Below, piece after piece: positions 24,532-28,365 of a stretch of 64,000 nt of DNA (positions are counted from its first letter, which is position 1; each line of letters begins with the position of its first letter). The notes beneath the pieces were generated by a model. That model was given only the letters and a program-made list of their open reading frames with translations. It did no database searches and was not told where the DNA came from. The position numbers and the translations under genes were made by a program. Origin of the DNA: Pseudofulvimonas gallinarii (GTDB lineage Bacteria; Pseudomonadota; Gammaproteobacteria; Xanthomonadales; UBA2363); the NCBI RefSeq assembly GCF_004343305.1, contig NZ_SMAF01000001.1:186001-250000 (forward strand), in the 5' to 3' direction.

Positions 24532-26676
24532 ATGATCCGACTGGTCGCGTCGCTTCTGGCCTGTGCACTGGCCGCATCGGCAGCGGAACCCGCTTCCGCC
24601 CGCACGATCACCCACGAAGACCTGTGGCGGATGCCACGCGTCGCCGCGCCGGTACCCAGCCCGGACGGTCGCCAGCTCGCTTTCACCGTCACCCTGCCCG
24701 AGTACGACGCTGACAGGTCGCGCACCGACATCTGGCTGGTGGCCAGCGACGGTCGCACGCCGCCACGCCAGATCACCTTCGACCGTGGTGGCGAATCAGG
24801 ACTGGCGTGGAGTCGCGACGGCAGGCGACTCGCCTTCGTTGCCAAGCGTGGCGACGACGAAACCGCCCAGGTCTACGTCCTCGATCTCGATGGCGGCGAA
24901 GCGCGACGCGTGACCGACATCGTCACCGGTGCCCGGGCACCGTCATTCTCGCCGGATGGCCGCCATCTGCTCTTCATCAGCAACGTCCCGGCCGGTTCCA
25001 CCAACGAGGAAAGCCGGCGCGCGCTGGTCAAGGAACGCAAGGAACGCAAGCACAGCGCCATGGTCTATACCGGCTTTCCCATCCGCGACTGGGATCGCTG
25101 GCGCGAGGACACGCAGGTGCGCGTCTTCGTGCACGACCTGGTCGATGGCGGCGAGGCGCGCGACCTGCTGGCCGGCACGCAGTTGTCGACGCTGCCCGGC
25201 TTCGCCGGCACCGGCGGCATGGGACGCGAGGAAATCCAGGCAGTCTGGGCGCCGGATGGTCAGTCCATCGTGTTCAGTGCCAGCCGCAACCGCGACCGCA
25301 GTGCCTGGTCTTTCACCCACAACGACCTCTGGCAGGTGGCGCTCTCCGGCGGCGAACCACGCCGCCTGACCGGCACCGATGCCGACGACGCCGCGGACAG
25401 CCATGGATCGGTGACCTTCAGTGGCGACGGTCGCCGCCTGTTCGCCATGGTGTCGCCACGAACCGCCCAGGTTTACAACGCCGCCCGCCTTGTCGCCTTC
25501 GACTGGCCGTCGATGGCGGAGGTGGCGCGAATCGAGGCGCCGGAAAGGCGTGCGATCGGCAGCTATGTGGTCAACCAGCGTGGTGATCGCGTATGGTTCA
25601 GCGTCAGTGTCGATGGCCAGGAGCACATCCTGGAAGCGACGACCGGCCGCGGTGAACCGCGCGAGTACGCGCGCCCGGATTCGGGTGGCTATCTCGCGCT
25701 GACCGGCGTCGCGCAGGGCGACTCGCCGATGCTGGCGGGCCTTTTCGACAGTGCGGTCACGCCACCGGAAGTCGCGCGCTTCGACGCCGGCCGCAACCGT
25801 TTCATTCGCCTGACGCAGTTCACCGCAGAACGACTTGCCGGCCTCGACCTGATGCCGGTCGAGCATTTCTGGCACGACAACGACGGCCACCGCATCCACA
25901 GCATGCTGGTACGTCCCCCAGGCTTCGATCCGTCGAAGAAATATCCGCTGTTCGTACTGATGCACGGTGGTCCGCACATGCAGTGGCGGGACCAGTGGGT
26001 GCTGCGCTGGAACTACCACCTGCTGGCCGCGCGCGGGCATGTCGTCCTGCTGACCAACTTCCGCGGATCGACCAACCAGGGCGAGGCCTTCGCACAGGCG
26101 ATCATGGGTGATCCGCTGCGCGGTCCGGCCGACGACATCAACACGGCTGCCGACGCCGCCATCGCGCGCCATGACTTCATCGACGGCGAACGCCAGTGCG
26201 CCGGCGGTGCCAGCTATGGCGGGCACCTGGCCAACTGGCTGCAGGGTACGACCGACCGCTATCGCTGCCTGGTCAGCCATGCCGGCCTGGTGAACCTGGA
26301 AGCGCAGTGGGGCACCAGCGACATCGCCTGGTCGCGGGAAGCGTCGATGGGCGGCCCGGTGTGGGAACAAGGCGAAGTCTGGCGCACGCAGAACCCGATC
26401 CGCCTGGCAGCCAACTTCCGCACGCCGACACTGGTGACCTACGGCGAGAAGGACTTCCGCGTGCCGATCAACAACGGCCTGGAATACTGGGCGGCACTGC
26501 AGCGGCAGCGCGTCGAGAGCCGGCTGGTCGTCTTCCCCGACGAGAACCACTGGATCCTGAAGGGCGAGAACAGCCGCTACTTCTACCAGGAAGTCGGAGA
26601 CTGGCTGGCGCGCTGGCTGCTTGACGAAGCCACCACCACGCCCGCACCCTCATCCGCTGATCCGCTGATCCGCTGA
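24532..26676 (+). CDS. S9 family prolyl oligopeptidase-type peptidase, exported
   Basis: A 714-residue peptidase with a signal peptide (about 1-23, ending PASA), an N-terminal beta-propeller built of WD40-like SPDGRQLAF, SRDGRRLAF and SPDGRHLLF repeats, and a C-terminal alpha/beta hydrolase domain (about 440-700). Catalytic residues are Ser561 in GGASYGGH, an Asp in YGEKDFRVP and a His in DENHWILKG. Family members (acylaminoacyl or dipeptidyl peptidases) release short peptides in the periplasm. The last residues, SADPLIR, are encoded by the first copies of an 8-bp tandem repeat, and the stop codon lies in repeat copy 3. Confidence 0.93.
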   Translation: MIRLVASLLACALAASAAEPASARTITHEDLWRMPRVAAPVPSPDGRQLAFTVTLPEYDADRSRTDIWLVASDGRTPPRQITFDRGGESGLAWSRDGRRLAFVAKRGDDETAQVYVLDLDGGEARRVTDIVTGARAPSFSPDGRHLLFISNVPAGSTNEESRRALVKERKERKHSAMVYTGFPIRDWDRWREDTQVRVFVHDLVDGGEARDLLAGTQLSTLPGFAGTGGMGREEIQAVWAPDGQSIVFSASRNRDRSAWSFTHNDLWQVALSGGEPRRLTGTDADDAADSHGSVTFSGDGRRLFAMVSPRTAQVYNAARLVAFDWPSMAEVARIEAPERRAIGSYVVNQRGDRVWFSVSVDGQEHILEATTGRGEPREYARPDSGGYLALTGVAQGDSPMLAGLFDSAVTPPEVARFDAGRNRFIRLTQFTAERLAGLDLMPVEHFWHDNDGHRIHSMLVRPPGFDPSKKYPLFVLMHGGPHMQWRDQWVLRWNYHLLAARGHVVLLTNFRGSTNQGEAFAQAIMGDPLRGPADDINTAADAAIARHDFIDGERQCAGGASYGGHLANWLQGTTDRYRCLVSHAGLVNLEAQWGTSDIAWSREASMGGPVWEQGEVWRTQNPIRLAANFRTPTLVTYGEKDFRVPINNGLEYWAALQRQRVESRLVVFPDENHWILKGENSRYFYQEVGDWLARWLLDEATTTPAPSSADPLIR

Positions 26677-26728
26677 TCCGCTGATCCGCTGATCCGCTGA
26701 TCCGCTGATCCGCTGATCCGCTGATCCG
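26653..26728 (+). repeat. 8-bp tandem repeat (TCCGCTGA), 9.5 copies
   Basis: Nine perfect copies of TCCGCTGA (26653-26724) and a half copy. Each junction creates GATC, so with the site at 26729-26732 about ten GATC sites lie in 80 bp. Because 8 is not a multiple of 3, a TGA appears once every 24 bp in every forward frame, so any frame entering the array is stopped. The array ends the S9 peptidase and lies 66 bp before the globin fusion gene. Confidence 0.95.
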
Positions 26729-26739
26729 GATCAACCACC

Positions 26740-26793: not shown

Positions 26794-28365
26794 ATGTCGC
26801 ATCCGGTTGAATACGAAGGCCGTGAATACAGCGTCCGCGAAGGCGAAACCATCCTGCGCGCGCTGCTCCGCCAGGGCGTCAACATCAACTATTCCTGCGG
26901 CAAAGGCAGCTGCCATACCTGCATGTGCCGGCTGGTCAGTGGCTCGGTCGAGAGTTCGCGCGACATCGATCCGGCGCTGAGCGGAAGCGGACATTTCCTG
27001 CCCTGCGTCAGCCGGCCGAAGGAGCGGGTCGTCGTCGGCCCGCCCGATCTGGATGCGCTGGCAAAGCCGGCCGAAGTCATCGGACGACGCCTGCTTGCCG
27101 ACGACACCCTCGAGCTGGATATCGCCCCGATGGGCGAAGTGGCGTACGAGGCCGGCCAGCACATCCACATCGCCGGACCGGACGGACTGTCCCGGCCCTA
27201 CTCCATCACCACCCTGCCGGGTGAGGACTTCTTCCTGCGCATCCATGTGCGCCGCGTCGACGGTGGCGCGATGAGCGGCTGGCTGTTCGATCACGCCGAC
27301 AGCGGTACCACGCTGTCATTGCGCGGCCCCTACGGCGACTGCTTCTACGACCCGCGCATGCAGGGTCGGCCGCTGCTCCTGCTCGGTACGGGCACCGGCG
27401 CCGGCGCGCTCATGGCGATTGCGCGCGCCGCGCTGTCCGCGGGCCACACGGCACCGGTCACGCTCTTCCACGGCGGCCGTCGCCAGTCCGATCTGTATCT
27501 GCATGAAGTCCTGTGCGAGCTCGCACGCGAACATGCCAACTTCACCTACGTACCATGCCTCAGCCGCGAGGAAGCCCGCGGATGCGTACGCCAGGGTCGC
27601 ATCGTCGAGCATGCCTTCACTGGCCTTCCCGACCTGCAGGATGCCGAAATCTTCCTCTGCGGCCTGCCCGCCATGGTCGAACAGGCGCGGGTCATGGCCA
27701 TCGTCGCCGGCGCGCGACGCGACGCCATCCACGTCGACCCCTTCGACTTTGCCCACGGCAACGTGCAGGACGACGCCAGCCGCGTCGATGCCATCCCGGC
27801 CGATCCCGAACTGTGGGCCGCGCTCGGCAACGGTCCCGGCCTGACCGCGGTGTTGACCGACTTCTACCAGCGGCTGTTCCAGGACGCCCGCCTGTCGCCC
27901 TTCTTCCACGGCATGCTGCCGCAGCAGGTCGCGGCGAAGCAGTACGGTTTCCTCGCCGACCTGATCTCGGGGCGGCGTGAATATTTCGGCCTCAATCCCT
28001 ACAACGCGCACCACTGGATGGTGATCTCGGACGAGCTGTTCGATTACCGCGAAGCGATGTTCGAAGAGGTTCTGCGCGAACATGGACTGGCACCGCACCT
28101 GGTCCGCCGCTTCCTCGCGCTGCACGAGCGTTTCCGGACGTCCATCGTCAAGGCGGAAGCGGTGCCGATGCGGGTCAAGGGCGTAGACATTCCCCTGCGC
28201 ACGCAGTCGGTCGAACGCCTCGACCTCGACACGGTCTGCGATGGTTGCCACCAGGAGATTCCCGCCGGTTCACCGGCGCGCTACCACGAGCGGCTGGGCA
28301 CCCTGCACTGCCGGACGTGTGCGCAATTGACCGACGAGGAAATCGCCGAGGTAATGCCGGACTGA
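26794..28365 (+). CDS. Ferredoxin - FAD/NAD reductase - truncated haemoglobin fusion
   Basis: A 523-residue, apparently cytosolic redox protein with four modules. Residues 1-85 are a plant-type 2Fe-2S ferredoxin with Cys35, Cys40, Cys43 and Cys71 (CGKGSCHTC). Residues 90-325 are a ferredoxin-NADP-reductase-like unit with FAD motif RPYS (135-138), pyridine-nucleotide loop GTGTGAG (198-204) and FLCGLPAMV. Residues 345-447 are a truncated haemoglobin with a B10-type Tyr in TDFYQRLF and the proximal His in NAHHWM. Residues 476-523 hold a CxxC...CxxC pair (482, 485, 506, 509), perhaps a zinc ribbon. Electrons could pass from NAD(P)H through FAD to haem for oxygen or NO chemistry. The ATG at 26794 is chosen; a TTG lies 18 bases upstream. 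Confidence 0.9.
   Translation: MSHPVEYEGREYSVREGETILRALLRQGVNINYSCGKGSCHTCMCRLVSGSVESSRDIDPALSGSGHFLPCVSRPKERVVVGPPDLDALAKPAEVIGRRLLADDTLELDIAPMGEVAYEAGQHIHIAGPDGLSRPYSITTLPGEDFFLRIHVRRVDGGAMSGWLFDHADSGTTLSLRGPYGDCFYDPRMQGRPLLLLGTGTGAGALMAIARAALSAGHTAPVTLFHGGRRQSDLYLHEVLCELAREHANFTYVPCLSREEARGCVRQGRIVEHAFTGLPDLQDAEIFLCGLPAMVEQARVMAIVAGARRDAIHVDPFDFAHGNVQDDASRVDAIPADPELWAALGNGPGLTAVLTDFYQRLFQDARLSPFFHGMLPQQVAAKQYGFLADLISGRREYFGLNPYNAHHWMVISDELFDYREAMFEEVLREHGLAPHLVRRFLALHERFRTSIVKAEAVPMRVKGVDIPLRTQSVERLDLDTVCDGCHQEIPAGSPARYHERLGTLHCRTCAQLTDEEIAEVMPD

Follow-up and report, generated by a model that had tools for sequence, protein, structure and literature searches.

Flavohemoglobin Hmp carries a globin and an FAD/NAD reductase in one chain; its globin is an N-terminal 3/3 domain (PF00042), and it has neither a ferredoxin domain nor a CxxC tail. 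Group I truncated hemoglobins, such as HbN and glbN, are single-domain proteins. Reductases of the BenC/GcoB class end with the NAD domain and deliver electrons to oxygenases. Among signaling proteins, HGbRL joins a globin and a roadblock domain in one chain (PMC4476040). Group 3 MglA systems, as set out in the available text of their description, consist of a receiver-like and winged-helix protein, MglA, and one or two MglB proteins (Wuichet and Sogaard-Andersen 2014, PMC4316618). They are reported there and elsewhere from many Beta- and Gammaproteobacteria, including Neisseria, Xanthomonas, and Snodgrassella (PMC4316618, PMC11112851), and mglB of the Snodgrassella system affects type IV pilus-dependent motility (PMC11112851). 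In the open-access literature searched, no sensor for Group 3 MglA systems was named and no globin in their operons was described. In this study, we compare with these systems a fusion gene of Pseudofulvimonas gallinarii, located in a window that is the whole stretch of DNA analyzed (64,000 nucleotides).

The fusion gene is a stop-free open reading frame on the forward strand (26794..28365) encoding 523 amino acids. The original prediction had read its module order as [2Fe-2S]-FAD-NAD-truncated globin-CxxC..CxxC, with the globin at residues 345-447. Pfam returned the same order, all four domain calls exceeding the curated cut-offs: Fer2 (PF00111, residues 8-76, 26815..27021, + strand), FAD_binding_6 (PF00970, residues 112-185, 27127..27348, + strand), NAD_binding_1 (PF00175, residues 196-299, 27379..27690, + strand), and Bac_globin (PF01152, residues 340-448, 27811..28137, + strand; 22.8 bits against a cut-off of 21). 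The cofactor residues predicted to be intact are all present, namely Cys35, Cys40, Cys43, and Cys71 in Fer2, RPYS at 134-137, GTGTGAG at 198-204, and Tyr358 and His406 in the globin. So is the predicted four-cysteine C-terminal tail, C482xxC485-x20-C506xxC509 (28237..28320, + strand).

The structural evidence agrees with this arrangement. The AlphaFold2 model of the fusion protein had a mean pLDDT of 92.0 and a pTM of 0.83. In a fold search with the whole model, the listed matches all cover the reductase part, and the first 320 residues match the structures of GcoB and benzoate dioxygenase reductase (BenC). The BenC-type motifs CX4CX2C..C, RxYS, and GTGTG are found in that order. For the globin part, the matches at E < 0.01 among solved structures were all truncated hemoglobins, and two other rows were at chance level; the best was truncated hemoglobin 4 (6bme, E 1.5e-6), followed by the Chlamydomonas eugametos and Paramecium globins and Mycobacterium tuberculosis HbN. 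Tyr358 and His406 align with the B10 tyrosine and the proximal histidine of these proteins. Following the known structures, we take these two residues to be B10 and F8. With the profile match, Tyr-B10, Gln-E11 (Gln383), and His-F8 all found, the globin is by its sequence a C-terminal, truncated domain nearest to group I. A sequence search of solved structures revealed no relative of the tail; with four invariant cysteines in CxxC pairs it is a candidate zinc ribbon or treble clef, and probably forms a metal (zinc) knuckle.

A scan of genome contigs gave 80 loci, of which 77 encode a globin with the HHWM motif followed by the tail; these are distributed over Gamma-, Beta-, and Alphaproteobacteria, Myxococcota, and Acidobacteriota. 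Within the order, scanning the whole genomes of relatives gave five homologs of identical architecture, one of them with an in-frame stop. The key FAD, heme, 2Fe-2S, and tail residues were invariant in an alignment of five members and again in one of 57. In all 57 full-length members, the 2Fe-2S cysteines, R134, Y136, Y358, H406, H407, W408, M409, and the four tail cysteines are unchanged, and Gln-E11 is present in 46. The fusion architecture is real, conserved, and well above chance, because the Pfam calls, the invariant residues in 57 members, the confident model, and the matches to reductase structures all support it. It is undescribed in the open-access literature searched.

Most of the family contains all modules. 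Four proteins, three from Marinobacter and one from another gammaproteobacterium, consist of ferredoxin, globin, and tail without the FAD and NAD domains. One Gallionellaceae protein retains a mere remnant between ferredoxin and globin. Eight proteins, from Myxococcota, Acidobacteriota, and one gammaproteobacterium, are globin and tail alone. These module forms clustered on a globin-tail tree that is compatible with either gain or loss of the reductase. By sequence, globin and tail are thus the constant part of the family. Since they occur without a reductase, in some cases near roadblock genes, the comparison suggests that they may be the functional core and that the reductase would be a means of keeping this core ferrous. 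Regarding mobile elements, one protein scan confirmed no viral relative of the fusion protein, and no plasmid match covered 80% of the query. An anti-phage defense role was rejected, given that the fusion protein had no PADLOC match and the partner genes gave just weak ATPase and dynamin matches.

The gene neighborhood was then compared among relatives. Genes around family loci were called by a simple ORF method and the neighbors were clustered. Besides PAS-GGDEF-EAL genes and a CxxCxxCC protein, the recurrent families comprised a fusion of an ABC-ATPase with a DSP-type phosphatase, a small GTPase, a Robl_LC7 protein, and two families named here by size, one of 134 aa and one of 228 or 214 aa. 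Pfam assigned the partner domains as Robl_LC7, GTPase PF03029, and ABC_tran with DSP phosphatase. The 134-aa protein had no Pfam match, and its model is a roadblock fold whose best matches include MglB and Ragulator (E 4e-7 to roadblock/MglB structures). The module in relatives comprises an MglA-type GTPase, two roadblock proteins, the ABC-ATPase/phosphatase fusion, and a winged-helix protein. Counted over the 58 loci whose upstream DNA reached 3.5 kb or more, at least one module gene was present in 43 and at least two in 40. The 134-aa roadblock protein occurred in 39/58 loci and the GTPase in 31/58; an ABC-phosphatase match was obtained in 40/58, an upper figure because the HMM may also match separate ABC ATPases or phosphatases. 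The nearest module gene often lies within 30 bp of the globin gene or overlaps it, and members lacking FAD/NAD or the whole reductase adjoin the same partner genes in several cases. Fifteen of the 58 loci, mostly from Myxococcota and Acidobacteriota, had no module gene within about 6 kb. A strict DAR/DGR pattern was seen in 18 of 36 GTPases. In Alphaproteobacteria, two dynamin-family GTPases stand in place of the small GTPase (L056, 1567-4823; also L042, L063, L067, L071, L079, and L080).

The 25 most frequent other-neighbor families included no Rieske oxygenase, no P450, and no nitrogen-oxide family, and the last result led us to reject an NO-detoxification operon. The same neighbor set bears on the idea that the reductase serves another enzyme, an oxygenase or a thiol target, with the globin as an oxygen gate. 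The closest structural relatives of the reductase part, GcoB and BenC, do feed oxygenases; however, the frequent neighbors include no Rieske or P450 enzyme to receive the electrons, and part of the family has no reductase, so we regard this idea as very improbable.

The main rival is NO dioxygenation, in which a one-chain truncated globin and ferredoxin reductase would convert NO and O2 to nitrate and the signaling operon would be just co-regulated. Tyr-B10 is invariant and Gln-E11 frequent, as in HbN. In Legionella, a truncated glbN and a ferredoxin reductase share an NsrR-controlled operon (PMC1274295, PMC3820574). Reduction limits NO dioxygenation by globins (PMC2323109), a limit that the fusion architecture would solve. 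No full-length flavohemoglobin was seen in the window genome, where the sole match to PF00042 falls in a frame of 137 aa. The upstream region offers a further point. A perfect 8-bp tandem repeat of 9.6 copies (26652..26728, + strand), the sole array of its unit in the genome, spans the 3' end of a peptidase gene and part of the DNA ahead of the fusion gene. Half of an FNR/DNR-like box, CTGATCCGGATCAA (9/10; 26721..26734, + strand), is formed by this repeat, about 60 bp upstream of the fusion gene. The box weakly suggests a control site of the fusion gene. However, boxes scoring at least 8/10 occurred in 14 of the 77 family upstream regions against 12% expected; this is no clear enrichment, and conserved FNR/DNR control of the family was rejected. 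The length of the repeat could vary by slippage, given that its unit is not a multiple of three.

Also against this rival, nitrogen-oxide families are missing from the frequent neighbors and some members lack the reductase entirely. The original prediction had suggested a self-contained electron chain for NO or O2 chemistry. That purpose gains no support from the same observations or from the recurrent neighbors, in which an MglA-type GTPase stands with roadblock proteins and an ABC/phosphatase fusion. NO dioxygenation is a possible chemistry of the fusion protein; as its full explanation we consider it rather unlikely.

In the window genome, the fusion gene is flanked by an S9 peptidase gene on one side and a convergent phosphorylase-like gene on the other, flanks that are not common to relatives. 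The module is on a separate contig (C9), where the ABC-phosphatase, 134-aa roadblock, winged-helix, GTPase, and LC7 genes stand in one row. This order is that of Lysobacter daejeonensis, in which the fusion gene comes next. In genome G013, the fusion gene is likewise apart from the module. Co-occurrence was strong at the genome level. All six fusion genomes were among the 10 of 101 genomes with the ABC-phosphatase (chance about 2e-7), and all four globin-tail genomes were among the 6 of 350 gammaproteobacterial genomes in which the roadblock partner had a strong match (about 2e-8), shared ancestry being ignored in both figures. The window genome has a second, differently arranged GTPase/roadblock/ABC-phosphatase set with no globin nearby (contig C31, L108, 116-4063), including two GTPase genes, of which one has an N-terminal extension. 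The window genome (G000) also encodes two more globins, one truncated and one of the single-domain 3/3 type (C5:7447-7704, L115; C6:34361-34678, L116).

The conserved operon is compatible with the globin as a sensor, an effector, or a protective enzyme. One version would have the globin generate superoxide or peroxide from O2 and NADH, or else scavenge NO, in the vicinity of the ABC-phosphatase protein's Cys-phosphatase and thereby control how active that phosphatase is, by analogy with the eukaryotic pairing of NADPH oxidase and tyrosine phosphatases. A DSP-PTPase domain is present in the family partner, the operon is conserved, and the Cys-X5-Arg motif (HCRGGLGRTG) is intact in the window-genome partner. 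Nevertheless, the phosphatase is absent nearby at some globin loci, and this version leaves the CxxC tail and the roadblock partners unexplained; we judge it improbable.

We put at about even the case that the fusion protein feeds gas or redox information, through its heme, into a roadblock-GTPase switch and stays reduced through an NADH-driven chain of its own. The family operon and the genome-level co-occurrence speak for this reading; the 15 loci with no module gene nearby and the separate contig of the module in the window genome speak against it. A sensor or regulator is preferred over NO dioxygenation because globin and tail persist without the reductase, some of them near roadblock genes. 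Because the gene adjoins a Ras-like GTPase switch in related bacteria, the arrangement suggests that bacteria use the protein to keep that switch informed of gas or redox state, not solely to destroy nitric oxide. By analogy with the families concerned, electrons would pass along NADH-FAD-[2Fe-2S]-heme. NADH would reduce FAD, FAD would reduce the ferredoxin domain, and the ferredoxin domain, or FAD directly, would return the truncated-globin heme to the ferrous state. As to ligand, partner contact, and output of the proposed sensor, we infer that either the redox state of the heme or its ligand, O2 or NO, may be relayed, probably via the CxxC tail and the roadblock proteins, to the MglA-type GTPase and the ABC-ATPase/phosphatase protein. 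Output may be transcription by way of the winged-helix partner, or c-di-GMP, or the behavior of type IV pili. In the window genome, contact with the partners would be in trans, since they sit on another contig. The wider reading is of a widespread, undescribed heme-sensor class, whose truncated globins would carry a CxxC tail, reduce themselves, and act in trans on a bacterial network of roadblock/Ras-like GTPase and ABC-phosphatase proteins. We hold it slightly more tentatively, a little short of even.

Compared with known systems, the fusion protein shares with Hmp a globin and an FAD_binding_6/NAD_binding_1 reductase in one chain. As originally predicted, it differs from Hmp, and by its sequence it is not a flavohemoglobin because its globin (PF01152) is C-terminal, truncated, and nearest to group I. 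It resembles group I truncated hemoglobins in globin type, Tyr-B10, Gln-E11, and His-F8; in contrast to them, its globin is joined to a reductase and a tail. Its [2Fe-2S]-FAD-NAD order and motifs are those of the BenC/GcoB class, whereas its chain continues to a globin. The raphidophyte nitrate reductase NR2-2/2HbN also unites a truncated globin and an FNR-type reductase, but is a eukaryotic Mo enzyme of other architecture. Globin-coupled sensors have an N-terminal 3/3 globin with a transmitter domain, an arrangement that the fusion protein does not have. HGbRL of Methylacidiphilum also brings a globin together with a roadblock/LC7 domain; it is, however, a direct fusion of another globin type, without a reductase and in one genus. 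A further signaling parallel is the Group 3 MglA system, whose available description, although its text mentions no globin or ABC-phosphatase (PMC4316618), is matched by the family's partner genes in content, as distinct from tree position: a small GTPase with a DAR-type G5 motif, one or two MglB proteins, and a winged-helix partner. A self-reducing globin in a Group 3 MglA-like operon would supply a candidate input for such systems and, if true, would extend globins from single-chain sensors to signaling in trans.
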